Below the pieces are notes generated by a model. It saw only the letters and a list, made by a program, of their open reading frames with translations, did no database searches and was not told the origin of the DNA. The translations under genes and the position numbers were made by a program. A DNA stretch of 47,303 bases, from the IMG/VR virus record IMGVR_UViG_3300024432_000020, positions 1-47,303 of that record, one strand, 5' to 3'. This DNA is from a virus. The stretch's first letter is position 1, and every line of letters begins with the position of its first letter. Shown here in pieces: positions 1 to 44,158 of this stretch.

Positions 1-144
1 ATGAGCGGCCAACAGACCGGTCTCAAGAACAAACTCATGCAGGGTCTCGGGTGGATCAATGGCGGTGGTAATTTTGTGAGGGCACCACACCATGAGCAGT
101 TCATCGAAGACGACGACAACGGACAGCATTCCCGCGTGGCTTGA
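1..144 (+). CDS. 3' end of an upstream gene (partial)
   Basis: Frame 1 is open from the first base to a TGA at 142-144, and the other two forward frames are closed early. It is probably the C-terminal tail of a virion gene cut by the window edge; an ATG happens to sit at base 1, so a 47-residue complete ORF cannot be excluded. The tail is Gly/Asn-rich and then acidic (EDDDNGQ). It overlaps the next gene by 53 bases. No function can be assigned. Confidence 0.4.
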   Translation: MSGQQTGLKNKLMQGLGWINGGGNFVRAPHHEQFIEDDDNGQHSRVA

Positions 145-1186
145 AGCAGGTAGCGAACAGGCTGTAGGAATTGCCCGAAGAGTTGCTGATCGGGAATACA
201 CGCCGTATGAAGAACAGCGAATTGCCGATCTCTCGGAGGGCGAGCGAGTCGCCGGGGAGCGGGCGCTTGGCATGGGTCAGGACTATCAGTCCGACCTGGA
301 GCGATCCCGTGAACTGACCGAGCAGGGCGTCCAGGGATTCACCGAGGCCGACATGCAGGGCTACATGAGTCCCTACATTGAGGGCGCACTGGATCCGGCG
401 GCGCGTGAGCTTCGCGAAGAAATCGCCAGGCAGCAGCAGGCGATCGGTGGCAAAGCCGGCATGTCCGGTGCGTTCGGTGGCGCTCGTCACGGCATCGCCG
501 AGGCCGAAGGACGCCGCGGCGGCCTCGAGGCCATGAGCGACCTGTACGGGCGTGGCTACCAGCAGGCCTTCGAATCTGCCCGTGACCAGTTCAATCGCGA
601 TCGCGATGTGTTTGCTCGAGGAGCGGAGCAGTTCCGGGCGACGGGTCAGGCAGGCCAGCAGATGCTGACGCAGGACATCCAGAACCTGCTGACAACCGGC
701 GGCGTTCAGCGCCAGCTGGAGCAGGCAGGCCTTGACTTCGATTACGGCCAGTTCATCGAGGCCAGGGACTGGGACGTCAACAACCTGAAGCCACTGCTCG
801 ACACGCTGTCGACAGTTCCTCACACCAAGACCCGGACGCAGAAGGAGAAGAAGGGCGCCCTGGGTACCGTCCTCGGCGTGGCAGCCACGGTTGCCGGCGC
901 CTACTTTACCGGCGGCGCATCACTTGCTGCCTCTGGCGCGAGCGGCGGATTCCTGAAGAAGGTCGGTGTTGGATTCGGCGACATGCTGGGCGGTGAAGGC
1001 GCAGGCATGGCGGCCTTTGGCGGAGGCGGAGGCGGAGGCGGCGGCAGCGGAGGCGGAGGCTGGGCTGGCTGGTCAGATCCATGGGCCGGCGGTTATGGCG
1101 GCGGTGGCGGCGGCGGTGGCGGCGGTGGTTCCTTTGGTGGTTGGAATGATCCATATGGTACCGGCGGCATGGTTCCAGAGTACTAG
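92..1186 (+). CDS. Gly-rich virion (internal/ejection-type) protein
   Basis: 364 residues. The N-terminal two thirds are helical, Gln/Glu/Arg-rich and resemble podovirus structural proteins (signature GMSGAFGGARHGIAEAEGRR near residues 122-141). A small hydrophobic Ala/Gly segment follows (about 255-285). The C-terminus is a glycine tract with Trp-Ser/Asn-Asp-Pro repeats (WSDPW, WNDPY). A GAGGG lies 8-9 bases before the ATG. It sits directly before a Pro-rich protein and the giant polyvalent gene, which is where podoviruses place proteins ejected with the DNA. The structural role is inferred from context and composition; an enzymatic role is not apparent. The reverse-strand ORFs across it are shadows. 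Confidence 0.7.
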   Translation: MSSSSKTTTTDSIPAWLEAGSEQAVGIARRVADREYTPYEEQRIADLSEGERVAGERALGMGQDYQSDLERSRELTEQGVQGFTEADMQGYMSPYIEGALDPAARELREEIARQQQAIGGKAGMSGAFGGARHGIAEAEGRRGGLEAMSDLYGRGYQQAFESARDQFNRDRDVFARGAEQFRATGQAGQQMLTQDIQNLLTTGGVQRQLEQAGLDFDYGQFIEARDWDVNNLKPLLDTLSTVPHTKTRTQKEKKGALGTVLGVAATVAGAYFTGGASLAASGASGGFLKKVGVGFGDMLGGEGAGMAAFGGGGGGGGGSGGGGWAGWSDPWAGGYGGGGGGGGGGGSFGGWNDPYGTGGMVPEY

Positions 1187-1195
1187 GAGATAATC

Positions 1196-2575
1196 ATGGG
1201 CGACAAATTAAACGAATGGATCAACGCGAACTCCGCCACGCTGCAGGCGCTTTCTGGACCAGGGCAACCGGGCATACCGCCATCAGCGATACCTGGTGCG
1301 CCAGGCGCGCCCGGTGCGCCACCGCCAGGATTCCCGCCGGCAGACCCTGCAGCAGCAGGGGGGTTTCCCCCGCCGCAGGCAGGACCGCCGGCAGGCCCAC
1401 CGCCTGGTGCTACTGACTACTCAGGTGCGTTCCCTGGTCCAGCGCCAGCCGCAACACCGCAGCCGCCTGCCTTCGACATGCCGATGATGCAGCCACAGGC
1501 CGCACCGGTCGAAGTCGGCGGACCAACACCAGGCGCGCCACCGCCAGAGGCGGCACCGAAGCCGAAGCCCAAGGACGCCGTTGGATTCGAAGATGTAATG
1601 AAGGACGCCGATCCCAAACAGATCGACGAGGCGATCAAGGTCATGGAGACAGCCTCTGGCAAGTCGGTCGAGGAACTCTATACCGCGCAGACTGGCGCAC
1701 CGCCACCGGAGGGCATGGGCAAACGGAAGCTCGGTCAGGCCTTATTCGAATTCGGACTGAACCTAATGGCGGCGCCAGCAGGCTTGAGCGATGTCGAGAC
1801 GATCGGCCGGGCTGGACAGGCCACCATTGCCCAAAGGACTCAGCGCGAAGAGAAGGAGGAGCAGAAGGCCTTGGCTGCTGAGGAACGGCGTGCTGCCGCA
1901 CACGAGCGCGCTATGGGTCGCCTTGATCGCAAGTTCGATCGTGCTGCCACGCTGGAGCGCCTGTCGATGGAACGACAGCGCACGCAGGCAGCGCTTGATA
2001 AACCGATCGGCGAGTTCACGAACTATGTTGGCCCTGGTGGCTACATGTATGAGTGGAACCCGGAGACTCAGGAAGGTCGCCAGATCATTATCAATGGCAA
2101 GCCGATGAAGGCTACTGACCAGGCGATCGCAGGTAAGCAGCAGCGCTTCGATACCGAGGTTCGTTTCAACATGTACATGGGTGTCTACGGCAAGGATTCC
2201 GATGGCAATCCTCTCACTGGTGAAGCGTTCAGCCTGGCTCAGAAGGAAGCACTCAAGTTTGCCAATCGCCAGAAGCCATACACCAGAGCGGAGGCGAATC
2301 GATCAGCGGTAGATGGTGCGACATCACTGTTCAAGAACGATTCGAACTACGCGCTGGCGACGCCTGAAGAGCAGCGCACGATGTTCAAGGCCAAGGTTGC
2401 CGAACTGACCGAGATGTACATGGCTGGCTATGGCAATGGCGGTGGCGAACCTGATGCATCGAAGCTAGTCGAGGGGGTTGCCACTGCGATCACAAATGAC
2501 AATGGCATCACCGAGTACTGGATGCTGAAGAACGGCGAGAAAGTCAAGGTAAACGAGAGTCAACTGGTGCGATAG
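1196..2575 (+). CDS. Pro-rich virion-associated protein
   Basis: 459 residues, preceded by AGGAGATAATC. Residues about 20-125 are a disordered Pro/Gly/Ala region with short collagen-like stretches (GAPGAPGAPPPG). Residues about 130-160 hold an acidic helix, followed by a charged coiled-coil-like stretch at about 205-265 (REEKEEQKALAAEERRAA). The C-terminal half contains aromatic/Gly segments and ends in a small beta-rich part (WMLKNGEKVKVNESQLVR). Its stop abuts the ATG of the 4513-residue gene, so the two are probably co-translated and may act together in the virion. No enzymatic motif was recognised. Confidence 0.65.
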   Translation: MGDKLNEWINANSATLQALSGPGQPGIPPSAIPGAPGAPGAPPPGFPPADPAAAGGFPPPQAGPPAGPPPGATDYSGAFPGPAPAATPQPPAFDMPMMQPQAAPVEVGGPTPGAPPPEAAPKPKPKDAVGFEDVMKDADPKQIDEAIKVMETASGKSVEELYTAQTGAPPPEGMGKRKLGQALFEFGLNLMAAPAGLSDVETIGRAGQATIAQRTQREEKEEQKALAAEERRAAAHERAMGRLDRKFDRAATLERLSMERQRTQAALDKPIGEFTNYVGPGGYMYEWNPETQEGRQIIINGKPMKATDQAIAGKQQRFDTEVRFNMYMGVYGKDSDGNPLTGEAFSLAQKEALKFANRQKPYTRAEANRSAVDGATSLFKNDSNYALATPEEQRTMFKAKVAELTEMYMAGYGNGGGEPDASKLVEGVATAITNDNGITEYWMLKNGEKVKVNESQLVR

Positions 2576-5500
2576 ATGGCCTGGACCTACGGCGCACAAT
2601 TTCAAGTTCGAGATCCTGACGAGCAGGACGAGAACGGCCTGACGTACGGCGAGCAGGTGCCGGTAGCATTCGGCGACTACTCGAAGGCTACCTATGGCGA
2701 GCGGTTCGATGTGCATGACCTTGATCCTATTCAGGGTGCTGAACCAGGCCTTCGCCAGCGACTGCTGTCCAGCGTCGATCTTGCATCTGAACCTGCCAGC
2801 GAGTTCCAGCCCGGTGATCGCAGGTGGGCAGAAAGCAGGTTCGAAGAGGACCAAGAGCGGCCCAAGGTCTACATCAATCACCAGAAATTTCAGGATGCCG
2901 GTGCCAGCGGCTACGAAGGCAAGATGCTGCTGGCCGAGTCGCTGCATAACCTGAAGAACGTCGATCCCGCCCGATACCGAAGACTGCAGCGAGCAGCGGC
3001 AGAAAGCCCTGAGTACATGAAGTGGGCCAAGGAATCGTATCGTCTATCTCAGGACGAGGGCGAGGAACGGTCATTCGAAGACTGGCACAGGGTTTCGCGT
3101 TTCGACCAGGTCATCGGCGGTTACCTGTTCGCTCAGGATCCCAGCATCCCGACCATGGCCGAGTGGTCCCGTACTGATCTGCCGTTTGGCGAGGGGCTGA
3201 CAAAGGAACTGGACGATCTTGAGAAGGCGCTCGGGGCTGAACAGCCGAAGCAAAGCCAGTCGTTCATCATCCGGCGCCCGAGTCCGGAAGAAGCCGCAGA
3301 GTTGCGAGAACGATATGAGACCAAACCATGGGAGCGAATTACATCCGAGGCTGCCGGTGGCGGCATCCTGGGACTGCCATCCAAGCAGGAAATAATGGAG
3401 CGGAAGTATCCGCGTGCCAAGGAGAAAATGCAGGCGATTGAAGATGCGTCCTGGGAAGGTGTCGAAGAAACTGGCTGGGGCGAGGGATTCTCAAAAACAA
3501 TGGAGAAGCAACTGCCGAACTACAGGCGGCAGGTGTTCGGCGGTATGCGCGGTGGCAATCCGGTAACCGTCGCAGACCTCGAGCAAAATGCGATGGCCGA
3601 GCAGATGATTACCGGCACCGGACGTATCCAGGATTCAATTGAGAATAACCGCATCGCCAAGGAGTGGGGATTCGAGGAGGGATCTGATCGGGTGCCTGAG
3701 GGCGTTCATCCAGTCGATGCCTTTGTGGAATGGCTCGGGACTGCTGATGGCCGTGGTGAAACGGAGTTGGTGGCAGCGAGTACTCCGGTTGCAGTCATAG
3801 CCCAAGATATCTGGGATGCCGAAACACAGACCTGGGACGATGCTGCGCTTCTCGTTAAGCCACACAGCCTGAAATACTATGCGTTCGGATCGCTGGATGC
3901 CTTTCTCAATATGGGCCCAGCGGTGGCGGCCACGTTTTTGACAAAGAATCCCATGGTCGGTGCTGCCATCATGGGAACCCAGGTCTATGGCCAGACATAC
4001 GGGACGATGCTGGATCGCGGATATTCGCCAGATCAGGCGAGGGCAGCCGCCGTTTTCTCAGCGCTTGCCGAAACAGTAACCGAGCGGGTCTCGCTTGGAG
4101 TTCTCACCAAGAATAATTTCACCGGGCTGAAACGAATCTTTGCCGGTGCCGGTGCTGAAGGCCTGCAGGAACCAATCACTGAAGCCCTGCAGATGGGTTA
4201 CGACGTGGGAATCCTCGGCGATGACATAGGCATGGGCGAGGCCTTCATGCGCCTAGTCGATGCCGGCATCATCGGCTTTGGTGTTGGCGGCGGCATGGGG
4301 GCCACCGTCGAGGCGCTCAATCGTGCGAGTACTCCAGCCGCCCAGGAGGAAGCCAAATACGAACAGCACATGGATGCGCTGCATCTCGACCTAACCAAGG
4401 CAAATCAAGAGGCGCAGGCGCTTGAAGTCCTCGAGGGGAATACCGAGCTCCTGGATAAGGTGATCAACAATCAGTTGGCAGATGTTTCGAATGAGGAACT
4501 TGCTGAGCTTGAAGAGCAGAAACTGATCAGGATCGAAGACGATGGCACGATCAAGGCGCTGCCGAAAGCTCGGCGCCAGGTAGCCAAGGCACAGGTCGAA
4601 GTCAGACAGAAGCGCAAGAAGGAGGCACTCAAAGCTCGAGGTGTTAGTGAAGCCGAGGCAGGCCCGACCGTCGAAATCTTGGACATGGCGCCTGCGTTTG
4701 CAGCGGCCGAAGTCGAGACTGAAATCGACCCGACCGATGCGCAGAAATCTGCTGGCAATTACCGCAAGGGACGTTTCACGTGGAACGGTGTCGAGGTTGC
4801 AATCGAAACGCCAGCTGGCGCAACAAGGTCTGGCGTCGACGAGCAGGGGCGTCCCTGGTCGCAGGTCATGAACTCTGGGTACGGTTACTTCACATCGAAA
4901 CCCGGCGCCGACACCGTCGATGGAGAACCGACCGAAGGGGTCGACGCTTACATCGGACCCGACCTGACAGTCCCCACCGTGTATGTGATCAACCAGGCGA
5001 AGAACCCTCGCCGGGAAGCCGTCGGCGAGAACTTCGATGAACACAAGGTCATGGTCGGCTACCAGTCGCAGCAAGCGGCTCTCAATGCTTACGCAGAAGA
5101 CTTTGCGCCGGTTCGTGTAGTCGAGGGCGAAGTCGTTGGCAAGTACCCTGGTGAGCCGCTGGCAGATAACGAGATGGTCGACCTGTGGTTCGACGATCTT
5201 GCGCGCATGACAGAACGCGCGACAGACCTTGAGACGCGCGCCGAGCCGCTCAATTCCGTGGAGGAACTGGAGCTCGAGGAGCTTCGCGAAGATATCGAGA
5301 CGCGCCGGACTGACATTGCCGGCGAAGGCTATGACCCAGCCGCGTTGCTTGCCGCACCTAAAGTATCCGTACTCCCCATGCAGCCGCAGCAGTTCAAGGC
5401 GTGGCTCGACAGACCATCGCATGCGCTGCCGGTTTCCCTGGATGATCGTGCCGGCTACGACAAGCTGCCGGTATTCGCTACCGTCGAGGCAACTGACCCG

Positions 5501-8500
5501 ACACCTGAGCGCTACCCATCGCGTGGCAAGAAGGTCACTGGAGCGCCACCAGGGAGACGCTCCTTCAAAGACATCGACAAACTGATCGAGAAAACCGTGG
5601 CGATCCTCGAGGATTCGAAACTGATTCCGCCTGAGGCCTGGACCTGGTACGAGGACTCTGGGCGAAAGATTCGAGAGATCACCCGCAACGACCCGGAACT
5701 GATGCACTCCGTGGTCCAGATCCTGGCGGCCACATCGCAGGGTGCTGGCGTAGGCGCGAACACAACCTTCATGATCAAGGGTGCCTACGCGATCGCCAAG
5801 GGCGAGACCAAACCAGAGACCGGCATGTATCCGCAGACCGCCAGCGCGAACATCGAAACGATGGCTAAGCTTGAAACCCAGGAGATCACCAACCAGCAGC
5901 CTGGCATTGGCTCCAAGGTGATGAGCTTCTACCGCAACCTGTACGACGCCACATTCAACACCAACCTGTATCCCGACGATGTCACGATTGATCGGTGGAT
6001 GGTCAGGAATCTGGGCTACACCGCTGGCGATTCGGTCGAGGGTACGCAATACGATTACGCCCGGAAGATATTTCAGGATGCCACCGCGCGTTACAACGCG
6101 AGGAACGGAACGAACTGGCTGCCGCGGAATGCTCAGGCAGCGCTGTGGGTACACGAGCGATCAAAGGCATCGATGTCGAAGACGGGCAAGGTGACCCCGG
6201 TCGATGCATTTGCCGAACACATCGAGGCCGTGACCGCAAGAGTCACGCACGAGGCAGTGCCATCGAAGACTACCGAGCAGGGCCGTCAGGTCGATGTCTT
6301 ACCGCGGGAAGAGAAGCAGGAACTCGGGCGGCGCCAGCGCGAGGCCTTGGCGGAGAACAATACGCATGTCGTGATGGAAGCACTCGGCGTGCCGCTCTAC
6401 AACGTCGCCACAGCGATCGGCGGTTACGAGGGCATGATCAACCCGAACGAGATTTCGAACATCGTCATGGTCGGTGGCGCTGAACTTGACCGGCCGAGGG
6501 CAGATGTCTTCTCGCGGATCATGCAGTACATCTATACGCAGGATGCGGTGCCCTGGTTCCGAGCGGAGCGGAAGGCCGCAACCAGCGAGAAGACCGGCAA
6601 CTTCGGGCGGAGATACACGCAGGGTATCAACTGGGATCTTCAGGGGCCGCTCAACGAGGATCAGGAAACCATGCTCTTCGATGCCCTGCGAAAGGCGCTG
6701 GGTCCAGACGCTGGGTTCAGCATGGTTGGTGAAGATCAACTAGTAATAATCGATTTCAAAGATGAGAAGGGCGTCACATTTTCTGGACTTAAACCTGCTG
6801 AATTCATTGAAAAAATCGACCAGATAGGGGAAAATATCGGAGCCGATCTTGGAGTTGTTAACAGCCACACTTTCGGCGCTGAGGGTAACTATTTAACACA
6901 GGACTGGGAGACTGACCCCAATGGCCAAAGACTCGAAGAAGCGATTCAAGAGTACGCCAGCACCCGCGGACCACCGGATCTTCTCGAACGGGTTCGTGCT
7001 TGGCGGGAAAGTGCGCAAGGCATCACCCGCGAGTTCCTCAAAGCCGATACCAGGCCGAGGGCGGGGGCAGCCGCACCGATATCCGTGGCTCGACTCGACG
7101 ACCGATCCGCGACCGAAGACGCCGTCTTCCAAAGATTCGGGTCAGTAGATCGCACACGAGATACGACCGAAGAGCTTAAGTTCTATGACCTCACCCCGGT
7201 CGTAGAGAATCCCGAACTCACTGATCGCCTGGCCGATTCCTTCGGCTATACGATCGAAGTATTCTCGTTCGAAGCCGATAACTTCAAGCTGCCCAGACTG
7301 GGCAAAAAGAACTACGAGGAAGGGACGGTCTACATCTATGATCCGGCGGCCGCTCACGGGTCATTCAAAGACGAGACCTATACCCGCGCCTGGCGAGTCA
7401 GCCACGAGATTGCGCACGGCATAACCGAACGCCTGATGCAGGAACGCTACGGTGACTCGAGGCGCTACGGTCGTCTCGGTCGGCCGATGATGGGCGAGCG
7501 CGGTGTGCCGCCGAAGCGCGTGGAGGTCGAGCTCGAGCCGCTGACACTGCTGCAGGCCCAGCGCGCAGTGGAGTGGGAAGATGTGGCGTTTCGTGTGCAG
7601 CGAGTCCTGCTCGACAAGATGGGCATCTCGATCCCTGACTCGGTCTTCAACCAGGAATACAACACCAACATTGCCGACGCCACCTTCCGTACTGTGACCG
7701 GAGACTTCGCCGATGCTGGCGAGTTCGGATTCAAGCCGTCGGTGTTCAAGCCGACCATCAAGTCGATACTCACCGGGCTGGAGCGTACCGAGCAGGCCTT
7801 GGCCGAAGACCAGGGACGCGAGGCAACCGAGGGCATCGATCTCGCAACCTACAACCAGATCAGCGATGAGCAACTGCAGGAGGCGATCGATCTCCAGAGC
7901 AGGGAGCCAGCCGACAAGCCGCTCTTCTCTGTCGTACCTGGAGTGCCGGCGGACACGAAATGGTACCGCGGCTCGCAGCATGAGGAGATCAGGCTGCACA
8001 GGGAGACCGGCATCGTGCATGCCTCGACCTCTGAGAAAACGGCAAGCGCCTTCGGCCCAGTCAGCGAGGTGACGCTGCATGTGCAGAACCCGTTCGACTA
8101 TGAAAACCCGGCGCATGCCAAAGCGCTGAAGGCACAGTTCAGGACCAATGCCCAGCTGATGAAATTCGCGCAGGCACTGGATGTGGTGCATGGCGGCGAG
8201 CGCACCTGGTTGGGCGGTGAAGGCACGCTCGAGGATGTGCGCGAGTATTTCAATGTCGGCCTTGAGATGGGCAACTACCAGACGCTCGAGTCGCCGGCAG
8301 TGCTGGAGGCTATCCGGGCGATGGGCCATGACTCTGTGTACATGGTCGAGGATGACTTCGGACCCAAGGGCATAGCTGTCTTCGATGCTGCCCTGATGAC
8401 CAGGGACGCACCGCTCTTTGCCGTGATCGAGGACGAGGTGTTCCCCGGGTTCTACTCCGGGCTTGCTCGAGCGGCCCGAAACCTGAAGCAGGACAAAGGA

Positions 8501-11500
8501 ACCGGCAAGCAGATGCTGGCCATGCTGACCAAGATGCCAGGTGTCAAGGCTGAGGAGCTTGACTGGACCGGCGTACCTGAATACCTGAGGGCCAAGGAGA
8601 CCGTCACCAAGGACCAGTTGATCGCGTTCATCGACGCCAACGGTGTGCGGATCGAAGAAACCAATCTCGGTTACAGAGGGATTGGGCGTGGTGACATGCC
8701 TGAAGATGTCAACTGGAAGAAGGTGCAGGATGCCTACGAAGCCGGCGAGGCCGGAGGCATCATGGACTTGCCGGCTACCCAGCAAGACATCGGCGGAACG
8801 ACATTAACCGAAGAACAAATCGAGGTGATTGAGGACAGGGGTTCTGAGTACGTTACCTGGGAGAGCATGACCCCAGGCCAGAAGAACCAATTCGCCCAGA
8901 TCGTTTACAAAGTGGACACGACAGGCGCAGCCGTACTCGGGACCGAATATGGTGGCGACAGCGTAACGCTGCCCGGTGGCAAGAACTATCGCGAGATTCT
9001 GCTGAGGCTGCCCGAAAAATCCATCGACATACCGGATGTCTCCAGGGCAGTAGGCTGGCCAACCGATGCAACCATTCGCGATCTTGATCGGCAGATGCGA
9101 GAAAAGTTCAACGAAGGCCTGACGCTCGAGCAGCGCGACTTTCTGCAGGGCGGGGCGCCTGCACAAATCATCGACATGCTGGATGACTGGGATGCCAGGC
9201 TTGGCATCGATGTGACAATGGCGAGAAGTCAGGTCGCACCGCCTCCTGTATCGATGACGGTACTGCAACTGGAAGAAGGCCCGGCGACAGAGGACCTTGC
9301 CGATGTCCTCATGACCGAACTGCACGAGACGGATATCCCCGTAGAAAAATGGGGTTGGTATAGCGAAGAGGGTCGATTCGAATTCGAGAATCTTGATGCC
9401 GACGAGTACGACATTGTCTATGAACTGTCGCGAGCGAATGGGGTGCAACTTATCAGCGGCGCACCGGAAGGGGCAGTGCCTCGCGCCGGCAGGGTCAATG
9501 GAGTTATTCAGTTAGGCCCAGGCATCAGCCAAAATGTGTGGAACCAAATCAATAAGCAACTCTATGAGATCGGGCTGAGCGATCAGGATGTCACCTGGGA
9601 AGATGACGAGCGTCGTTTTTATCTTAATGACGTGTCGCCCACCATGCTGGATCGCGCTAATACCATGGTCGGAAACTATGGCCTTGCAGCCCTGCAGCAG
9701 CCATCAGCAACGACCCCGGTTAAGCGAGCGCCTGCTGGCCGCCGACCGATAGAAACTTACTACGCTGCACACTGGAGCAGCTGGGCGAACATCCTTGCGA
9801 GCATTCGCATCACCGAGCGTATCGGTGAAGATGGCGAGCGCATCATGTTCATCGAGGAGATCCAGAGCGACTGGCACCAGACGGGCAGGGATGTCGGATA
9901 TCGGGATCGACCCAGGGGCATGACGCCTGAGAGAGACGACCTCAAGGCAATCAAGAAACCGCTCACCGACACGGCCGACTACTGGGAAATCAGAACGAAG
10001 ATCGGGCAGTTTGTTGTCAACGTCACCGCGGTGGATGGCGTCCTCCCAGACGAGAGCGCCGCCATTGATGAGGGCTATCGGCGACTGACCCAGGAAACGG
10101 AGATTCGCCGTCGAATTGAAAGGGAAGAACGGGGAGCCGTACCCGATGCGCCGTTCAAAGGTAATGCCTGGGCTGAACTCGCGATCAAACGAGTCATGCG
10201 CCTTGCGGCCGAAGAGGGATTCGATTCGGTTGCCTGGACCACAGGCGAGCAACAGTCAGCGCGGTATAGCCTGAGCAGGGTGCTTAACAGTCTTTCTGTC
10301 TCACCGAGCGCGCTCGAGGGCCGCCCGGATGTCCGTATCGTCTGGCTGGATCCACACATGGGAGATTCGATACAGCTTCAGGTTAATGCCGATGGCATGA
10401 TCGAAGACTCGGGCAGGCATGAATTCAAGAACAAAAAACTTTCGGATGTCGTCGGCACTCCCATGGCGAAACAGATCATGGAGACCGATAAGCGGATAGA
10501 GATCGACGCCGAGAACCTTGACATCGGTGGCCAAGGAATGAAGTCGTTCTACGACAGGACGATTCGCAACCTGGTCAGCAAGGTCATCAAGAAGCTCGAC
10601 AATACGATAAAGACCAGCAGCACCAGGATCGACACAAGCGAAGGTCGCGGCGGGCCATACACGGTAGGCCGGTGGCCTGGATCACCTCCGCCCGGAACAC
10701 CTGTGGCCCAAGTAGTTGAAGTCCAACACGCTCAACTGGCAGACCTTGCGGCAGCGGCAAGGCCGATCGACGAAGCTGACTATGGTTCGGACAGGCAGAT
10801 CAACGCCCAGAACAATTTCACGTATACGCTGCAACAGATTTTGCCGAGCGAGCAATGGGAGAACTTTGAAGACTACGCACATCGGGCTACCCCAGAGGAG
10901 ATGATCTCCTACGGCATGAGCCTGGCTGCCGCGGATGCTCCGCCGGTTATTATCACTCACGCAGAGATGGGGACGCTTACGGCCATGGCCGAAGAAGCGC
11001 GACGAGAGGCAGAGCAAGGCGCAGATGTGGGTCCTTATCCCACGGCCGATGAAGTTTTCTTTACGGAACTCTATGAATACATAAGCGAAGACCAGAAGGG
11101 CGTGCTTGATGACATAGCTTCTGATCCCGACACTGATCCGGGCGATGTCATCGACACCGGCCTTGGGATGGTCGTCGGGCAGTCACCAGATGTGGAAGTA
11201 CCAGTTGCGCCACGAGAAACGGTAGTCTCAGAAGACGAGTTACGCGAGCTTCGAGAACTAGGACGAGCCGCAAGGCCAGCGGAAGCTGCTGATGAGGGAA
11301 CGCCAGAACAACAAGACGCGTGGAATACCTTCGTTCGGAAGCTATCGGATACCTTGCCCTCATATGCCTGGGAAACATGGGAAGAGCGTGACGCCGAAGA
11401 AGCCCCCGGCGTTTACGAACTAATTACCTATGGCATTGCCTTGGCAGAAGAGGAGGCATTTACGATAACGCCAGAGATGGTGGCCAGACTTGAAAACACA

Positions 11501-14500
11501 GCGCAAAACGCGAAGCGAATAAACAATGAAGAACCCGACTCACAAAGAGCGCGGAATTCGATGGAAGCATTCTCTGCCGAGCTTAATGATCTGCTGCCCA
11601 GTTTGTCGTGGCAACGATGGTTAGAGCGGGAACCCCGAGGTGTTGACGACGACATTGACTCAGGCCTCAGAATGGCAAGGATGTTTGCGGGTATGCCTGA
11701 CGTGGCTGTGGCTGCGCCCGTGCGCGTGGTTGGCGACCAGTGGGGTATTCAAAATACGCAGGGTGAGTGGACAGGTCCGTACGAGAGCGAAGAGGCTGCG
11801 ATTGAGGGAGCGGCCCGACGAGACCTCGAGGATCTTGAGGCCGTCCATTTAGTCGACATCTCTGATCAGATGCGAGAGCGCCTGATCACGGATGGCCTGT
11901 CACTGTTTGCCGTGACGCGGCAGCCTGCTGCTGGTGTGCCAGTCGCTAACCTGCAGAGCGTGATCAGCGAGATCCTGGACCTGTACCCAGGGTCGCCGAA
12001 CGTGAAGATCGCAGCGACCGAGGGTCACATGCCGAACAAGCAACTGCTTGAGATCAAGCACGCCGGCATGGAAGGCAAGGTCGGTGGCATGTTTGACCCG
12101 GAGACCGGCGATGTCTACCTGATTGCCAGCAACCTGAAGAATATGAAGCAGGCCGTAGAAATCTACCTGCACGAAACGGTGGGTCACTACGGCGTGCGGT
12201 CTATCCTGGGCGCCGAGTACGACACGATCATGGACCAGGTCTGGAAGTCTCACAAAGAGAAGGTCAGGGCGGCCGCTCGGCGGAATGGCCTGGACGTTAG
12301 GATCCCGTCGCAGCGGCGCATCGCCGCGGAAGAGTTCATCGCGTACAGGGCGCAGCGTGTGCTCGCAGGGGAGAAGATACCAGCCCGTGAGGCATCCTTA
12401 CTCAAGCGCCTGGTCGAGGCCATACGGATCGCCATAGCGCGCCTGAGGGGCGTCCAGATGTCTGACGCTGACATCCAGCGGCTGATCAGAAAGGCGCGGA
12501 TGTTCGTGGCCACGCCGGCAAACAAATCACCGGGGCTGCTGCCTGCTCGCAAGGCGCCGGTCATGTTCGCCAACCTGTGGAAAGCGATCAACAACGATCG
12601 CGTTCCGAACTCCGGGTCGGCCGCGATGTATCGCAAGGAACTGAATGCGCAGGTCCGCGCCGGCAATATCACCGAGGAGGATGCCGAGCCGCTTGTCTTC
12701 TACCTGGCGGAGGCCGCGCACATCGATAAGGGTGGGCTGCTGAACCAGATACGCGAACTCGGAAATCGCAATGCATTCCATGTCGACGAGTACGAGGGTA
12801 GGGCAAACGCTATTGAAACCGGTGACCTCCATGAAAGCTTCACCATGGACGAGGGGTCGCTAACCAGCCGGAGATGGAATTACCTGGTCTTCAAAGCGCA
12901 GGACAAGTTCATCGACCTGCTGAATGTGCAGAAGGCGATCGAGCTACAGACCGGGCGGCCGATCGATGAGAGTCTTGATGCCTACCTGGCTGAGGAATTG
13001 TTCCATGGTCAAGTGAAGTCACGAGTTGATCGCTTCGAGAAGGACTACATCCGGCCGCTCACTGAAGCGATCGATGATAGCGAGTACACCTGGGACGAGG
13101 TCGAGTGGTTCCTGTATGCCAGGCACGCACCAGAGGCCAACCGTCGGCTCTATCGCATCAACCGATCTGCCGTTCTGCGACGCGCGCGTAACAAGGCGAA
13201 GCAGAAAGCCGAGGCAAAACTTGAGAAGCGCATTGCCCGGATAGATGCGAACAAAGCCACGCAGCGAAACAAGATCGAAGCCGAGCATGCCAAGCGACTG
13301 GCTGTCATCGAGTCCGAGTACCGGTCACAGATGCGCCGCTCGAAAGAGAGCCAGAAGAAACGGCGTGAGAAAATCGAGACGGCCAAGGCCAACAAGATCA
13401 AGCGCGCCGATGCGAGCAAGAACCAGCGCATCGACAAGCTGGAAACGAAATACAAATACGTTCGTGCCGACTACGAACTCACCTACCAGGCCGAGATCGA
13501 AGAGGCCGATGTATCGTTCCGCGAACGCGAACAGGAGCGGGTCAAAGAAGACCCCGGGCTGCTGGCATTGTCCGGCATGAGCAACGCGGATGCAGCCTGG
13601 GCGATGGAGGCGCTCGGGGAGAAGGGCGACATCAGTGAGCTTGAAGCGATCGCTGCCCAGGTCGATGCGATGACCGCGCGCAACCGAGAGATCATGGTCA
13701 ACGAAGGCCTCGAGGAGCAGTCGACGATCGACGCCTGGGAGAAGGCCTATCAGTTCTACGTGCCGCTGAAGGGGTTCAAGGACGGCCCGATGAACACGAC
13801 GTTCTTCCCGAAGAAAGGCAAGGGCTACGATACTGGCGGCAAACTGAATCAGCGCCGGCTTGGGCGCCGATCGATGGCGGCTAACATCCTGGCCAACATC
13901 GTGGCTCAACATCAGTCGGCGGTGGTCGTGGCCGAGAAGTCGAAGGTCGGACGCACGCTTCTTGAGATGGTGAAGAAGCATCCGAATCCAGACCTCTGGA
14001 CGGCCAACGAGATCGAGACCAAGAAGCGACTAGATCCGAAGACTGGCCTGGTGATCACTGCAGTAGACCCGACTTACAAGCTCAGGGACAACGTACTCCG
14101 GGTGAAGGTCGACGGCAAGGATTACCACATTACTTTCAATGAAGAGAGCGATGTGGCAATGCGGATCGCCAAGTCGATGAAGAACCTGAGTTCCGATGAA
14201 ATCAACTGGCTGTTCAGGAGCATGCTATCGCTGAACCGAATCCTGTCCGCGGTCAATACGAGCTACAACCCGGAGTTCATCGTGTCGAACCTGGCGCGTG
14301 ACCTGCAGACGGCGATGATCAATCTCAATGCCACCGATGCTCAGAACATGAAGATGACGATTCTCAAGGATGTGTTCAAAGCGCACCGCGGCATCCGGAG
14401 ATTCCTCGAGCTGCCTAGTTTCAAGGACCCTGAGTCTGCCGACTACTGGAAGCAGCAGTTCGAGGAGTATCGGGATCTCGGTGGTCAGGTCGGGTGGCTT

Positions 14501-16117
14501 GACAATTACAAGGACGTTCAGGATCTTGAGACCTCGCTCTATCGTGATATGCAGGACAAGACTGCCGGCACGCTTTCATGGGCCACGCTCAGGAAGATGG
14601 GCAAATTCATCGAGGCAGAGAATCAGGCGGTCGAGAACGCAGTACGCCTGTCCGCCTTCGTGCATGCAAAGACCGCAGGCCTGTCTCCTCGGAGGGCGGC
14701 ATCGCTATCCAAGAACCTGACCGTCAACTTCAATCGTAAGGGCGATATCGGTACGCAACTAAACGCGGTCTACCTGTTCTACAACGCATCGATCCAGGGC
14801 ATGGCCGTCATATGGAATGCGGCCAAGTCACCGAAGGTTCGCAAGATAATGTACGGGATTGTCGCCTTTGCAGCTGGTCTCGAGATACTCAATCGCATGC
14901 TTGCCGGCGACGACGATGATGGCGAGAACCGCTACGACAAGATTCCGGCTTGGGTGAAAGAACGCAACATGATCATCATGATTCCAGAGCGCTTCCGCAG
15001 TCAGTCTCCAGATGATTTCACCGAGCACTACATCACGATTCCGCTGCCTTATGGTTACAACATGCTGCACACTATCGGGCAGAAGATCGGCGGCATCATC
15101 GATTACACGGGGATCGGCAACAAGCGGGAATGGTCGCCGCTTCAGGACAGCTTCGAAATTCTGGCGGCTGCGCTTGGCAGCTTCAATCCAATCGGCACCG
15201 GACCTACTCCGCTGCAGACGATATCGCCAACCGTGCTGACTCCGTTTGTGCAGGTCTCTGAGAATGTCGCCTGGCACGGTGGTCCGGTCATGCCGTCGGG
15301 GAATAAGTACGACCCGGCACCAGAGCCTGAATCGCAGCAGTACTATCGCAGCGTACCCAAGCACGCGATCGCCTTGGCCGAGTTCCTGAACAAGCTCGGC
15401 GGCGGAACGAAAGCACGGCCGGCACCGATCTCACCATTAGACATCTCCCCCGAGACCATTCAGTTAGTCGAAGACTTCCTGACTGGCGGTGCCGGTCGCT
15501 TCGTTACCAATATGGTCGAGCTCGGGGTCATGGCCAAGGAACGGGAAGTCGACATGCGCAAGGTGCCGTTTGCTCGGCGCTTCGTTGGCGTGACCGATGA
15601 ACGGGCCGTGAGCAACAGGTACTACGAGAACCGCACCAGGATCGAGTACGCCATTCAGGAAATCAAGGTCGCCGAGGAAGAGATCAAGGTATCCGGTACT
15701 CAGGCCGAGCGGGAGGACGCCATCAAGAATCGGGCGCGCATCCTCGAGCAGTACCGTCCAGATGCTGCAATGAAGGAGGCGCTGCGATTAGTGCAGAAAG
15801 GCCTCAGGGATTTGAATGCCACGCGCAAGGCAGTGCGACAAAGCACCCGTGATGAGGACTGGAAGAAGGAGCGGGAGGAGCAGATCGAACTGCAGAAGAC
15901 CAAGCTGATGAACAAGTTCAACAAGCGCTACAACCAGATTCTCGAGAAGCGCCGACAGACCAAGGAAGAGACTGCCATGAATCCGCAGTTACCAGGTAAG
16001 CAGCGACTGGCCGCAGTCCAGCAATTCAACAAGGCCGGCTATCCAGCGACGGCCCGACTGGTCGGATCCCTGCCGGTGAATCCCGGCACTGACTTCGTGG
16101 AGCGATTAAATGCTTGA
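2576..16117 (+). CDS. Giant polyvalent virion protein, 4513 aa
   Basis: Probably packaged and injected with the DNA, acting in the cell envelope or early in infection. Domains in order (residues approximate): three TYGxxF/V repeats 4-44; a conserved helical module 103-208; a hydrophobic Ala/Gly region 440-595; inorganic-pyrophosphatase-like domain 731-850 (GRFTWNG...EHKVMVGY); a DUF7178-like domain 995-1197; zincin domain with HEIAH at 1610-1614; ADP-ribosyltransferase-like (ART-PolyVal type) 1793-1945 starting at WYRG; a TLPGGKNYRE / EIQSDWHQ / WTTGEQQ module 2078-2680; four degenerate repeats 2718-3040; a second zincin-like domain 3121-3312 (HETVGHYG at 3199, EEFIAY downstream); charged coiled coil 3530-3660; LPD38-like region 3722-4110 with a hydrophobic helix near 4090; a PLxRFG-like motif (VPFARRFVG) near 4330. 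This order fits known phage polyvalent proteins. Domain names come from memory of family motifs, not a search. The frame is unbroken. Confidence 0.9.
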   Translation: MAWTYGAQFQVRDPDEQDENGLTYGEQVPVAFGDYSKATYGERFDVHDLDPIQGAEPGLRQRLLSSVDLASEPASEFQPGDRRWAESRFEEDQERPKVYINHQKFQDAGASGYEGKMLLAESLHNLKNVDPARYRRLQRAAAESPEYMKWAKESYRLSQDEGEERSFEDWHRVSRFDQVIGGYLFAQDPSIPTMAEWSRTDLPFGEGLTKELDDLEKALGAEQPKQSQSFIIRRPSPEEAAELRERYETKPWERITSEAAGGGILGLPSKQEIMERKYPRAKEKMQAIEDASWEGVEETGWGEGFSKTMEKQLPNYRRQVFGGMRGGNPVTVADLEQNAMAEQMITGTGRIQDSIENNRIAKEWGFEEGSDRVPEGVHPVDAFVEWLGTADGRGETELVAASTPVAVIAQDIWDAETQTWDDAALLVKPHSLKYYAFGSLDAFLNMGPAVAATFLTKNPMVGAAIMGTQVYGQTYGTMLDRGYSPDQARAAAVFSALAETVTERVSLGVLTKNNFTGLKRIFAGAGAEGLQEPITEALQMGYDVGILGDDIGMGEAFMRLVDAGIIGFGVGGGMGATVEALNRASTPAAQEEAKYEQHMDALHLDLTKANQEAQALEVLEGNTELLDKVINNQLADVSNEELAELEEQKLIRIEDDGTIKALPKARRQVAKAQVEVRQKRKKEALKARGVSEAEAGPTVEILDMAPAFAAAEVETEIDPTDAQKSAGNYRKGRFTWNGVEVAIETPAGATRSGVDEQGRPWSQVMNSGYGYFTSKPGADTVDGEPTEGVDAYIGPDLTVPTVYVINQAKNPRREAVGENFDEHKVMVGYQSQQAALNAYAEDFAPVRVVEGEVVGKYPGEPLADNEMVDLWFDDLARMTERATDLETRAEPLNSVEELELEELREDIETRRTDIAGEGYDPAALLAAPKVSVLPMQPQQFKAWLDRPSHALPVSLDDRAGYDKLPVFATVEATDPTPERYPSRGKKVTGAPPGRRSFKDIDKLIEKTVAILEDSKLIPPEAWTWYEDSGRKIREITRNDPELMHSVVQILAATSQGAGVGANTTFMIKGAYAIAKGETKPETGMYPQTASANIETMAKLETQEITNQQPGIGSKVMSFYRNLYDATFNTNLYPDDVTIDRWMVRNLGYTAGDSVEGTQYDYARKIFQDATARYNARNGTNWLPRNAQAALWVHERSKASMSKTGKVTPVDAFAEHIEAVTARVTHEAVPSKTTEQGRQVDVLPREEKQELGRRQREALAENNTHVVMEALGVPLYNVATAIGGYEGMINPNEISNIVMVGGAELDRPRADVFSRIMQYIYTQDAVPWFRAERKAATSEKTGNFGRRYTQGINWDLQGPLNEDQETMLFDALRKALGPDAGFSMVGEDQLVIIDFKDEKGVTFSGLKPAEFIEKIDQIGENIGADLGVVNSHTFGAEGNYLTQDWETDPNGQRLEEAIQEYASTRGPPDLLERVRAWRESAQGITREFLKADTRPRAGAAAPISVARLDDRSATEDAVFQRFGSVDRTRDTTEELKFYDLTPVVENPELTDRLADSFGYTIEVFSFEADNFKLPRLGKKNYEEGTVYIYDPAAAHGSFKDETYTRAWRVSHEIAHGITERLMQERYGDSRRYGRLGRPMMGERGVPPKRVEVELEPLTLLQAQRAVEWEDVAFRVQRVLLDKMGISIPDSVFNQEYNTNIADATFRTVTGDFADAGEFGFKPSVFKPTIKSILTGLERTEQALAEDQGREATEGIDLATYNQISDEQLQEAIDLQSREPADKPLFSVVPGVPADTKWYRGSQHEEIRLHRETGIVHASTSEKTASAFGPVSEVTLHVQNPFDYENPAHAKALKAQFRTNAQLMKFAQALDVVHGGERTWLGGEGTLEDVREYFNVGLEMGNYQTLESPAVLEAIRAMGHDSVYMVEDDFGPKGIAVFDAALMTRDAPLFAVIEDEVFPGFYSGLARAARNLKQDKGTGKQMLAMLTKMPGVKAEELDWTGVPEYLRAKETVTKDQLIAFIDANGVRIEETNLGYRGIGRGDMPEDVNWKKVQDAYEAGEAGGIMDLPATQQDIGGTTLTEEQIEVIEDRGSEYVTWESMTPGQKNQFAQIVYKVDTTGAAVLGTEYGGDSVTLPGGKNYREILLRLPEKSIDIPDVSRAVGWPTDATIRDLDRQMREKFNEGLTLEQRDFLQGGAPAQIIDMLDDWDARLGIDVTMARSQVAPPPVSMTVLQLEEGPATEDLADVLMTELHETDIPVEKWGWYSEEGRFEFENLDADEYDIVYELSRANGVQLISGAPEGAVPRAGRVNGVIQLGPGISQNVWNQINKQLYEIGLSDQDVTWEDDERRFYLNDVSPTMLDRANTMVGNYGLAALQQPSATTPVKRAPAGRRPIETYYAAHWSSWANILASIRITERIGEDGERIMFIEEIQSDWHQTGRDVGYRDRPRGMTPERDDLKAIKKPLTDTADYWEIRTKIGQFVVNVTAVDGVLPDESAAIDEGYRRLTQETEIRRRIEREERGAVPDAPFKGNAWAELAIKRVMRLAAEEGFDSVAWTTGEQQSARYSLSRVLNSLSVSPSALEGRPDVRIVWLDPHMGDSIQLQVNADGMIEDSGRHEFKNKKLSDVVGTPMAKQIMETDKRIEIDAENLDIGGQGMKSFYDRTIRNLVSKVIKKLDNTIKTSSTRIDTSEGRGGPYTVGRWPGSPPPGTPVAQVVEVQHAQLADLAAAARPIDEADYGSDRQINAQNNFTYTLQQILPSEQWENFEDYAHRATPEEMISYGMSLAAADAPPVIITHAEMGTLTAMAEEARREAEQGADVGPYPTADEVFFTELYEYISEDQKGVLDDIASDPDTDPGDVIDTGLGMVVGQSPDVEVPVAPRETVVSEDELRELRELGRAARPAEAADEGTPEQQDAWNTFVRKLSDTLPSYAWETWEERDAEEAPGVYELITYGIALAEEEAFTITPEMVARLENTAQNAKRINNEEPDSQRARNSMEAFSAELNDLLPSLSWQRWLEREPRGVDDDIDSGLRMARMFAGMPDVAVAAPVRVVGDQWGIQNTQGEWTGPYESEEAAIEGAARRDLEDLEAVHLVDISDQMRERLITDGLSLFAVTRQPAAGVPVANLQSVISEILDLYPGSPNVKIAATEGHMPNKQLLEIKHAGMEGKVGGMFDPETGDVYLIASNLKNMKQAVEIYLHETVGHYGVRSILGAEYDTIMDQVWKSHKEKVRAAARRNGLDVRIPSQRRIAAEEFIAYRAQRVLAGEKIPAREASLLKRLVEAIRIAIARLRGVQMSDADIQRLIRKARMFVATPANKSPGLLPARKAPVMFANLWKAINNDRVPNSGSAAMYRKELNAQVRAGNITEEDAEPLVFYLAEAAHIDKGGLLNQIRELGNRNAFHVDEYEGRANAIETGDLHESFTMDEGSLTSRRWNYLVFKAQDKFIDLLNVQKAIELQTGRPIDESLDAYLAEELFHGQVKSRVDRFEKDYIRPLTEAIDDSEYTWDEVEWFLYARHAPEANRRLYRINRSAVLRRARNKAKQKAEAKLEKRIARIDANKATQRNKIEAEHAKRLAVIESEYRSQMRRSKESQKKRREKIETAKANKIKRADASKNQRIDKLETKYKYVRADYELTYQAEIEEADVSFREREQERVKEDPGLLALSGMSNADAAWAMEALGEKGDISELEAIAAQVDAMTARNREIMVNEGLEEQSTIDAWEKAYQFYVPLKGFKDGPMNTTFFPKKGKGYDTGGKLNQRRLGRRSMAANILANIVAQHQSAVVVAEKSKVGRTLLEMVKKHPNPDLWTANEIETKKRLDPKTGLVITAVDPTYKLRDNVLRVKVDGKDYHITFNEESDVAMRIAKSMKNLSSDEINWLFRSMLSLNRILSAVNTSYNPEFIVSNLARDLQTAMINLNATDAQNMKMTILKDVFKAHRGIRRFLELPSFKDPESADYWKQQFEEYRDLGGQVGWLDNYKDVQDLETSLYRDMQDKTAGTLSWATLRKMGKFIEAENQAVENAVRLSAFVHAKTAGLSPRRAASLSKNLTVNFNRKGDIGTQLNAVYLFYNASIQGMAVIWNAAKSPKVRKIMYGIVAFAAGLEILNRMLAGDDDDGENRYDKIPAWVKERNMIIMIPERFRSQSPDDFTEHYITIPLPYGYNMLHTIGQKIGGIIDYTGIGNKREWSPLQDSFEILAAALGSFNPIGTGPTPLQTISPTVLTPFVQVSENVAWHGGPVMPSGNKYDPAPEPESQQYYRSVPKHAIALAEFLNKLGGGTKARPAPISPLDISPETIQLVEDFLTGGAGRFVTNMVELGVMAKEREVDMRKVPFARRFVGVTDERAVSNRYYENRTRIEYAIQEIKVAEEEIKVSGTQAEREDAIKNRARILEQYRPDAAMKEALRLVQKGLRDLNATRKAVRQSTRDEDWKKEREEQIELQKTKLMNKFNKRYNQILEKRRQTKEETAMNPQLPGKQRLAAVQQFNKAGYPATARLVGSLPVNPGTDFVERLNA

Positions 16118-16571
16118 GCTACTGAACAGACGCATCTCATCTGGAGATGAGGCCACCCTGGGTACGCTGTTCGATGTGACGGCCGAGCCTGAGTTCCTGT
16201 GCTACGTCCTCGAGGACCAGTTCAACGAACCGAAGATCAAGGGCGAGACCCGCATCCCGCCGGGCAGGTACCAGATCAAGTTCCGTGACGAGGGCGGCAT
16301 GATCGTGCGCTACAAGAAGCGATTCCCCTGGCACCGCGGGATGCTATGGCTGCAGGATATTCCGGACTTCCAGTTTGTCTACATCCACGTCGGCAACAAG
16401 GACGACGATACCGATGGCTGCCTCCTGGTCGGCGATGGTCAGGTGTCGAACGTAGAAGAGCGTGGCATGGTCACGACTTCGGTGGCTGCTTATCGCAGGC
16501 TGTACGAAAGAATTGCAGCCCAGCTTGAGGTTGGTGCCGAGGCCTGGATCACGGTGGAGGACTATGCATGA
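16110..16571 (+). CDS. DUF5675 family protein, candidate lysis/cell-wall protein
   Basis: 153 residues. Family hallmarks are visible in order: a YVLED segment near residue 33, IKGETRIPPGRYQIKFR at about 43-59, a WLQDIPDF segment and VYIHVGNKDDDTDGCLLVG near 92-110. DUF5675 proteins are common in phages and often sit where an endolysin is expected; their biochemistry is not settled as far as I know. The start overlaps the end of the giant gene by 8 bases and its stop overlaps the holin-like gene by 4 (ATGA), making it the first gene of the lysis cassette. No signal peptide or canonical muramidase, amidase or endopeptidase motif is visible. Confidence 0.8.
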   Translation: MLELLNRRISSGDEATLGTLFDVTAEPEFLCYVLEDQFNEPKIKGETRIPPGRYQIKFRDEGGMIVRYKKRFPWHRGMLWLQDIPDFQFVYIHVGNKDDDTDGCLLVGDGQVSNVEERGMVTTSVAAYRRLYERIAAQLEVGAEAWITVEDYA

Positions 16572-22114: not shown

Positions 22115-22505
22115 CGTTGCTTGTCTCCTCCGGAAACGGAATATCTATTTTCGCCATCTCTTCATTGATGCCGGCATGGAATAGATGTAGCTCGTGGTCG
22201 CCCTCTGGAGTCGGCACCCTGGCGCTCGAGATGTACTTGATGTCTGCATCCATCATCGGGAAGTCTTCGCCAGTGTTGACCATGACAAATTCGTGCGTCT
22301 CTTCCTGGTCGGTCTCGATGATCAGGCACCATACGAAGACAGCCACCTTCGTTTGCTGTTGGCCTTTCGATACGACGATCGCAGAGTCTTGGAATAGCTG
22401 CGCATCGAACTCCAGACAATCGACCAGGTGACCCTTGACCCTGATGGCGAAGTGCTTCGAGTTCGGCACCGGCACCTTCATCACTCGGAGCGCGCCCTCG
22501 CTCAT
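22107..22505 (-). CDS. Hypothetical protein between ssb and coiled-coil gene
   Basis: 132 residues, beta-rich: VMKVPVPNSKHFAIRVKGH, then VVSKGQQQTKVAVFVWCLI and EFVMVNTGEDFPMMDADIK, closing with an acidic end. The alternation of strands and the Gln-rich turn are reminiscent of small phage beta-sandwich proteins, but I recognise no named family. It overlaps ssb by 8 bases and the upstream gene by 4, so it is translationally coupled within the recombination unit. Confidence 0.65.
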   Translation of the reverse strand: MSEGALRVMKVPVPNSKHFAIRVKGHLVDCLEFDAQLFQDSAIVVSKGQQQTKVAVFVWCLIIETDQEETHEFVMVNTGEDFPMMDADIKYISSARVPTPEGDHELHLFHAGINEEMAKIDIPFPEETSNDG

Positions 22506-23221
22506 CTGACTGACAGCCTGGTCTCGCCCTTCACGGTGATGCCATGCTGCGCGATCTCTTCGGCGTCCGGGTTCTTCTCGTGCCAGTCCCTGGCCAGTTC
22601 ATTGAGCTTCGACTGCGAGAAGGTGACCAGGTCTGGCGGCAGCTGGCCCTTAGCGATCCCGAGGCAGGCGTGCAATACGTTATCGACCTGCCCCTTCCAG
22701 ACCAGGGTGGCCACGCTTGCGGCGCCTGTCAGTTCACCTCGGCCGATTGCCGGCTTGTGTTCCGGCTCCGGGGTCTCGGCTGCCATGTTCAGGATGGCTT
22801 CGGATGTGGCTGCCTCGCCTGACTCTTCGGCCTCCTCCGCGGCGGCCAGCGCAGTGTCCTCCGCTTCCTTGCGCTTGCGCTCGTTCTCTTCCCGGATCCG
22901 CTGTTGCTCGGCGCTGTACCAGAGGAGCATTTTGGTTTTGACTGACTCGTCGGCTTTGTCGAGGATGTCTCGGACCTTTTTGAATTCGGCATTGATAACG
23001 CGCACCCGGCCGCCGTACGGATCCACAAGCTCCTTCCGTTTGTCCTCGAGGCGCTTTCGGATTCCGGAGACGACCTTGCGGTAGTCGGTCCCGGTCTCGT
23101 AATTTTTCTGGGTTTCGATCTCGGCTTTGTCGGCCTGCGCAAGTAGGTCATTCGCTTTGGTCGTCAGGTCGGTGATCGTCACCGCCAGGTCCGCTGTCGA
23201 CACAATCAATTCTTGGCTCAT
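22502..23221 (-). CDS. Coiled-coil protein of recombination unit
   Basis: 239 residues. Residues about 15-150 are helical and highly charged (GIRKRLEDKRKELVDPYGG, then KRKEAEDTALAAAEEAEE), including a long coiled coil. The C-terminal part (about 165-239) is a compact domain (VWKGQVDNVLHACLGIAKG, PPDLVTFSQSKLNELARDW). Proteins of this layout are common beside phage RecT/exonuclease genes, but their role is not settled. A GAGGAATT SD precedes the ATG. It may act as a recombination accessory or host-nuclease modulator; inference only. Confidence 0.7.
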   Translation of the reverse strand: MSQELIVSTADLAVTITDLTTKANDLLAQADKAEIETQKNYETGTDYRKVVSGIRKRLEDKRKELVDPYGGRVRVINAEFKKVRDILDKADESVKTKMLLWYSAEQQRIREENERKRKEAEDTALAAAEEAEESGEAATSEAILNMAAETPEPEHKPAIGRGELTGAASVATLVWKGQVDNVLHACLGIAKGQLPPDLVTFSQSKLNELARDWHEKNPDAEEIAQHGITVKGETRLSVR

Positions 23222-24036: not shown

Positions 24037-24268
24037 TGTCTCTCTCAAAATTGGGAATGTCCGTTAGGTCCGTGATCAGGTAGTGCGACTCGTTATAGAT
24101 CGCGCCTCTGATGCTGTGCTCCACCAGTTGGTAATTTCTTTTGCACCCGCCTTTCTGAGTAAAGCCCTGAGAACTAGCGCCTATGATTTTGCCGTTGCCT
24201 GCTACCAGTCGCCATCGATATTTGTGATCGCGATCTTTATATAGTTGGAGTTCAGTCAGTCCGTGCAT
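24029..24268 (-). CDS. DUF1508-like small protein
   Basis: 79 residues. The middle KYRWRLVAGNGKIIGASSQG, followed by FTQKGGCKRNYQL, matches the DUF1508 pattern (strand, NG-turn, strand, then a G-x3-K helix). DUF1508 proteins are small and of unclear function, found singly in bacteria and phages. It overlaps RecT's stop by 17 bases and the exonuclease start by 8, so the three are one translational cluster. Confidence 0.7.
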   Translation of the reverse strand: MHGLTELQLYKDRDHKYRWRLVAGNGKIIGASSQGFTQKGGCKRNYQLVEHSIRGAIYNESHYLITDLTDIPNFERDNG

Positions 24269-36609: not shown

Positions 36610-36855
36610 ATGATCGTGACCAGCGTGAACGCTACTGTTGAGATCCTGGTGCCCAGCTACAAGGCACGGCTGCCAGGGTGGACCAGGATGGAGGCCGCCG
36701 GCAAAGTGCTCGAGGAGATCGGCCTGGAGGTTCAGGGTGCAAACAGAATCGAGATTAAGCCCGTCAGCGAGGGAGACTCCCTGATGATCTGGCATCAATT
36801 CCCAGGCGACGATAATCGCGCTTCCCAGGTATTCGGGTTCGGTACTGATGACTGA
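36610..36855 (+). CDS. Small hypothetical protein before TerS
   Basis: 81 residues from the ATG at 36610, with GGAGG 11 bases upstream; a TTG at 36592 is a weaker alternative. Strand-rich start (IVTSVNATVEILVPSYKARL), then LEEIGLEVQGANRIEI. It overlaps terS by 8 bases. Position directly before the small terminase suggests a packaging-associated or regulatory role, but nothing in the sequence proves it. Confidence 0.6.
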   Translation: MIVTSVNATVEILVPSYKARLPGWTRMEAAGKVLEEIGLEVQGANRIEIKPVSEGDSLMIWHQFPGDDNRASQVFGFGTDD

Positions 36856-44097: not shown

Positions 44098-44158
44098 ATT
44101 CGGGCGAGGGCGCACGGAGATCGGTCGGGGGTGGGGGCAGCCCTGACCGTGTTTGAGT

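Follow-up and report, generated by a model that had tools for sequence, protein, structure and literature searches.

This locus raises two questions: whether an open reading frame of 4513 codons is a genuine gene and, if so, what a phage would do with so large a product. The DNA analysed (hereafter the window) is an IMG/VR record of 47,303 bases; it comes from a metagenome contig and the giant protein is known from sequence alone. Because the relatives L002 and L003 lie on contigs of ~69 kb, the window is probably a fragment of a larger genome. The genes concerned, with their positions in the window, are:

92..1186, + strand: DNA ejection protein, the upstream neighbour (PHROG phrog_4287, E 2.3e-18)
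1196..2575, + strand: 459-aa ORF of unknown function, directly upstream of the giant ORF (ORF call)
2576..16117, + strand: predicted polyvalent protein, 4513 aa (ORF, Pfam, PHROG, orthologues)
16110..16571, + strand: DUF5675 gene (Pfam 8.4e-25)
22502-23221, − strand: exonuclease
24252-25328, − strand: RecT-like annealing protein
36848-37516, + strand: terminase small subunit
44153-45763, + strand: terminase large subunit

The giant ORF (2576-16117, +) begins with ATG and runs through 4513 codons with 0 internal stops. A near-identical copy, L001, was found in viral contigs, together with full-length orthologues of 4441 aa (L002), 4521 aa (L003) and 3358 aa (L004), all three open across the same span at 76-84% identity; three further contigs carry the N-terminal part of the protein. 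L002, L003 and L004, on uncharacterised IMG/VR contigs, are true orthologues in which the shared modules stand in the same order. Pairwise dN/dS, calculated module by module, ranges from 0.07 to 0.29; only the K repeats (~0.5) and, in the comparison with L004, module E (0.405) exceed this, and every module of the giant ORF is under purifying selection. Therefore, given full-length open orthologues and low dN/dS, the giant ORF is a real, selected gene, and the start/stop check together with the open orthologues bears out the first-pass annotation, made from the letters of this DNA, in its claim of a single unbroken 4513-residue ORF.

The gene stands in a late, virion neighbourhood: the ejection protein gene adjoins it, and in L003 tail-fibre and virion structural genes are found 5′ of the giant gene. 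The 459-aa ORF (1196..2575) returned no family in Pfam or PHROG searches; its gene position equals that of the JC1 virion protein gp68, with no sequence match to JC1. At the other end, the DUF5675 gene shares 8 bases with the end of the giant ORF.

At its C-terminus the giant protein carries a set of parts, here called the chassis, in common with known phage proteins:

12779..13165, + strand: chassis part M, aa 3402-3530 (JC1 gp69, E 2e-17)
13169..13537, + strand: charged stretch resembling a coiled coil, aa 3532-3654, shorter in L004 (sequence; L004 alignment gaps)
13523..14920, + strand: chassis parts N and O, aa 3650-4115 (JC1 gp69, E 1.5e-29 and 1e-32)
14924..15571, + strand: LPD38, aa 4117-4332 (Pfam PF18857, E 1e-32)
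15578..16114, + strand: charged C-terminal end, aa 4335-4513, with a match in Vibrio phage D171 as well

As a profile assignment LPD38 is certain (114 bits against a cut-off of 27), in agreement with the polyvalent-associated LPD38 claimed in the first pass. LPD38 also matches JC1 gp69 (E 4e-22), as do M, N and O, and all four parts recur in the distant giants L008, L011, L028, Vibrio phage D171 and PhiR12_3. The last two share 32-34% chassis identity with the giant protein and, like it, carry the second of the zincin domains described below; however, the profiles of InPase, the ART-like domain, HJ and DUF7178 all fail to match them. Moreover, aa 3649-4454 matches phrog_616 (length 2793) at E 1e-127. 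JC1 gp69 has been identified by mass spectrometry in CsCl-purified virions (PMC9144972), and deletion of the 2793-aa ORF80 of the Stx2-phage Sp5 abolishes tail formation (PMC5155283). Judging from the equal length and from Stx-phage and PhiR12_3 tblastn matches, ORF80 is a probable phrog_616 member and chassis homologue. By homology, then, a virion location of the giant protein is well supported.

JC1 gp69 and Bcep22 gp75 are DarB-like Lessievirus proteins of similar length to the giant protein (4515 aa in JC1), and gp69, too, is a late gene following small virion genes. The proposed comparison with Bcep22-type giants holds for the chassis shared with gp69, but only over the C-terminal ~900 residues, the cargo being entirely different: gp69 carries SLT, Eco57I-type methylase, SNF2 helicase and LPD3 and, unlike the giant protein, gives no InPase, ART, HJ or DUF7178 profile match. 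A role in antirestriction, with the giant protein as a counterpart of the DarB-like proteins of Bcep22/JC1 and P1, is suggested by the common chassis and by a match of aa 533-843 to the DarB-like PHROG 10089 (2e-29). However, this match spans the InPase region, and the pair of N6A methylase and SNF2 helicase that marks DarB proteins is present in JC1 gp69 and absent from the giant protein, in which no Pfam or PHROG scan found a methylase, SNF2 helicase or SLT domain. An antirestriction role of this kind is extremely improbable.

We consider it likely that the giant protein is a phage-type polyvalent virion protein, with a C-terminal chassis and exchangeable cargo delivered with the DNA. Its InPase, ART-like, HEXXXH zincin and LPD38 domains unite disparate biochemistry in one chain, and the phage polyvalent proteins of Iyer et al. 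2017 (PMC5512222) likewise feature InPase, ART, HEXXXH zincin, GNAT and LPD38 and are encoded by late genes. The polyvalent kind itself is already known; new here are the architecture, the exchange of cassettes between orthologues and the HJ module. Beyond the proteins of that survey, the present one has an HJ module without a Pfam model, and fixed-slot exchange between its orthologues is documented here. In a tblastn search of phage records none spanned 80% of either half of the giant protein, and the earlier suggestion that the domain combination and order may be new stands for annotated phages, the same order being seen only in unannotated metagenome contigs. Overlooked in the first pass were the shared C-terminal chassis, on which tail construction probably depends, and the exchangeable cassettes upstream of it.

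We propose that the giant protein is incorporated into the virion through its chassis (~3402-4513, with LPD38), most likely to serve in the tail or in ejection, and that the N-terminal three quarters would form a train of predicted enzymes entering the host along with the DNA. Iyer et al. (PMC5512222) proposed pyrophosphate or nucleotide hydrolysis for InPase, modification of host proteins for ART and processing for the zincins. Here, InPase might clear pyrophosphate or split nucleotide signals, ART might modify host proteins, and the two putative metallopeptidases may sever the train into pieces or target host proteins; HJ would travel in the cargo train, its activity unassigned. Related phages swap cargo at fixed slots and retain the chassis. 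We infer injection, enzyme activity and self-cleavage, as well as the joint delivery of several activities that the first pass put forward. In such an arrangement delivery would fall to a chassis that tail assembly probably requires, separate from the exchangeable cargo; the natural slot junctions are ready-made for testing domain roles and the entry of cargo into the cell.

The predicted cargo is composed of the following modules:

3713..4375, + strand: conserved N-terminal domain, aa 380-600 (profile/homology matches)
4736..5110, + strand: InPase domain, aa 721-845 (Pfam PF18823, E 1e-31)
5642..6163, + strand: DUF7178-like domain, aa 1023-1196 (Pfam PF23802, E 5.8e-6, borderline)
6473..7090, + strand: domain E, aa 1300-1505, no assigned function (found in orthologues only)
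7091..7906, + strand: zincin-like domain 1, aa 1506-1777; motif HEIAH at 1610, and EWE conserved at 1666-1668 (motif, conservation)
7958..8410, + strand: ART-like domain, aa 1795-1945, with WYRGS, STS and VFD (hhalign via L110)
8444..11914, + strand: HJ module, aa 1957-3113 (H/J co-occurrence, end signature, relatives)
10694..11830, + strand: K insert of ~70-aa repeats (repeat z-scores 9.7-19.2, K1/K3/K4)
11933..12535, + strand: zincin domain 2, HEXXXH (HETVGH at 3199), downstream Glu 3252/3253 (profile, motif alignment)

The N-terminal domain is common to the giants L009, L010 and L012 and to Vibrio and Pseudomonas phages; the idea of a membrane helix within it was dropped, no stretch rising above the hydropathy limit. 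The inorganic-pyrophosphatase-like domain of the first-pass annotation is, by profile, a certain assignment (110 bits against a cut-off of 26.8): the family's invariant residues are present, D790, D821, E822 and K824 among them, and these four together with E744, R751, Y769 and D779 are kept across 33 sequences. The DUF7178 module also named there remains borderline, with E 5.8e-6 and a score 0.2 bit short of the Pfam cut-off (26.8 against 27); the L004 orthologue matches the family at E 0.0029. Viral-contig scans with the single segments A2-A5 returned only orthologues already known, and zincin 1, DUF7178 and DUF6782, when run against 274-369 genomes of the class to which Hahella belongs, yielded no relatives of use. 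The profiles of DUF7178 and L008, of the ART-like domain and ART-PolyVal, and of zincin 1 and zincin 2 were too shallow for their direct hhalign comparisons to be informative. DUF7178, zincin 1 and ART are without structural support because the AlphaFold model of aa 940-1960, built from 6 sequences, reached only pLDDT 35. A Pfam match to Arteri_nsp7a was taken as chance.

Aa 1795-1945 gave no direct Pfam match to PF18760 ART-PolyVal (Tox-ART-HYD2). The same residues align by hhalign with domain 2 of an L110 protein at E 9e-11; that domain passes the ART-PolyVal cut-off (E 6.9e-10) and bears the ART family ending IKSAIGNRGTYD, so homology to ART-PolyVal is supported through this intermediate. 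The H-Y-D active site of the HYD type is incomplete: R1798 of WYRGS takes the place of the ART-PolyVal His (YHGT) in the giant protein, L002 and L003, and the WYRGS Arg and the STS motif are conserved in the latter two. The ADP-ribosyltransferase-like domain put forward earlier is thus upheld in its homology via L110, but without a direct Pfam match, and activity is uncertain because the usual catalytic His is replaced by Arg.

Alignment of the giant protein with its orthologues revealed whole-module indels at five fixed slots (aa 53, 856, 956, 1777 and 3401), three of which are placed in the window as follows:

2732..3241, + strand: slot 1, cassette of 170 aa (aa 53-222), missing in L003 and L005 (orthologue alignment)
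5141..5377, + strand: slot 2, insert of 79 aa (aa 856-934), shared by the giant protein and L001 alone (orthologue alignment)
12776..12778, + strand: slot 5, aa 3401, empty in the giant protein (orthologue alignment, Pfam)

At aa 956, L004 and L006 carry a 134-aa GNAT (Acetyltransf_1, 2e-6). The block downstream of the slot at aa 1777 (1777-3120, ~1340 aa, including ART and HJ) is missing from L004. Slot 5 holds a 262-aa ART-PolyVal in L003 (5.8e-20; L003:10001-23566) and, in L004 (L004:10001-20074), a 186-aa block that lacks a Pfam match and that we read as ParB-like on the strength of its DGRHRAIAAREL motif. Relative to the giant protein, L003 adds ART-PolyVal, and L004 adds GNAT and the ParB-like block and lacks aa 1777-3120. 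Between the window and L003, dS is 0.21 in E, 0.29-0.30 in zincin 1 and ART and up to 1.72 in aa 223-600; such a range along one gene indicates that its parts have different histories. At the level of sequence alignment, natural cassette exchange between orthologues at defined positions is evident.

The same data bear on whether the giant protein is mainly a structural tail or ejection protein, whose enzyme-like domains are degenerate, spacers or folding units and deliver no host-directed activity. Tail formation depends on a probable homologue (PMC5155283), the ART-like domain is without its usual His, and L004 does without 1.3 kaa, ART and HJ included, all of which this explanation would accommodate. 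It is nonetheless unlikely, since conservation extends to the acidic residues of InPase and, in zincin 2, to the HEXXXH and Glu, most modules have a dN/dS of 0.07-0.29, and relatives swap recognisable enzymes (GNAT, ART-PolyVal), which would be needless for spacers.

Returning to the predicted polyvalent protein with enzymatic cargo, the two zincin-type motifs of the first pass fared differently. Zincin 2 belongs to a profile family occurring in 28 loci, in which H60, E61, H65 and E114 (A12) are invariant; HETVGH at 3199 followed by EE at 3252 corresponds to the HEXXXH form of polyvalent metallopeptidase described by Iyer et al. (PMC5512222). Zincin 1, by comparison, has the motif and four orthologous sequences only: HEIAH at 1610 is kept in all four that cover it, profile and database searches gave no match to known MPTases or to the HEXXH polyvalent metallopeptidases, and it is a motif-only candidate peptidase.

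Could these zincins act on the giant protein itself, as on a polyprotein whose recurring PLF[SA]V joints they cleave to release individual enzymes? Two such joints stand at module edges:

7919..7933, + strand: joint PLFSV, aa 1782-1786 (motif at module edge)
8411..8425, + strand: joint PLFAV, aa 1946-1950 (motif at module edge)

Across 73 giants PL[FY]S was observed 22 times against 2.0 expected (kinship not corrected for), and unrelated modules end alike (ART ‘..PDIRFSR’, HJ ‘..GQPLF’, Vibrio zincins ‘TPLYSR’). Outside HJ proteins, the tag is present in 13/19 with zincin 2 versus 7/79 without, again uncorrected for kinship. Moreover, P1 DdrB is processed (PMC5512222). The N4 vRNAP, however, is packaged uncut (PMC5512222), and stand-alone HJ proteins without a zincin keep the ending, which may thus mark no more than where the fold ends. 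Because of these stand-alone proteins, and because the tag counts ignore kinship, we advance a role of the joints in cleavage purely as a hypothesis and regard a self-cut polyprotein as quite unlikely. PLF joints as clamp-binding motifs were also considered and dropped, their spacing not fitting.

Within the cargo of the proposed polyvalent protein, HJ makes up about a quarter of the whole chain and went unremarked in the first pass. It is a very common phage module, as yet unnamed, and no Pfam model covers it (1957-3113). Two halves, H (1957-2165) and J (2390-2700), are accompanied by inserts I (2165-2390) and K (2707-3085), the latter fast evolving with a dN/dS well above the rest of the gene. 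The halves occur together in 86/88 ORFs, and both exceptions start at contig ends. The general end signature resembles ‘VHSLDITPEMRESVxxGQPLF’; its counterpart in the giant protein lies at 3089-3111, after both inserts, and reads DISDQM...LSLF (3094-3111). At least 567 viral relatives were found, and the module exists both as part of giants and as a free-standing protein of ~740 aa. The invariant residues (H, R, E, Q, S, Q, W, G, Y, D) look enzyme-like. An AlphaFold model, which stops short of the module end at 3085-3113, reaches ~90 pLDDT over much of 2394-2685, and a PDB fold search with it returned nothing at E <= 0.001; the best weak matches, small alpha-beta domains, were not believed, and a marginal Pfam match of J to P22_Tail-4 (0.011) was taken as chance. 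Matches to HJ in the viral library are large uncharacterised proteins, of which some bear ART-PolyVal, LT_GEWL or gene-product-88 annotations, and in PHROGs HJ lies inside a 2564-aa family labelled endolysin, a label that probably stems from a different domain of the family. The combined proposal that HJ is a phage-wide enzyme of new fold, and that the LF[SA][VR]-type endings of HJ, ART and zincin are a release signal for embedded metallopeptidases, which would make cargo modules portable ‘tagged’ units, is very doubtful. Given how often this unnamed module occurs in viral contigs, HJ is a worthwhile target. One protein, a Dolichospermum phage giant (L054:2403-9623), contains HJ twice and ART-PolyVal several times.
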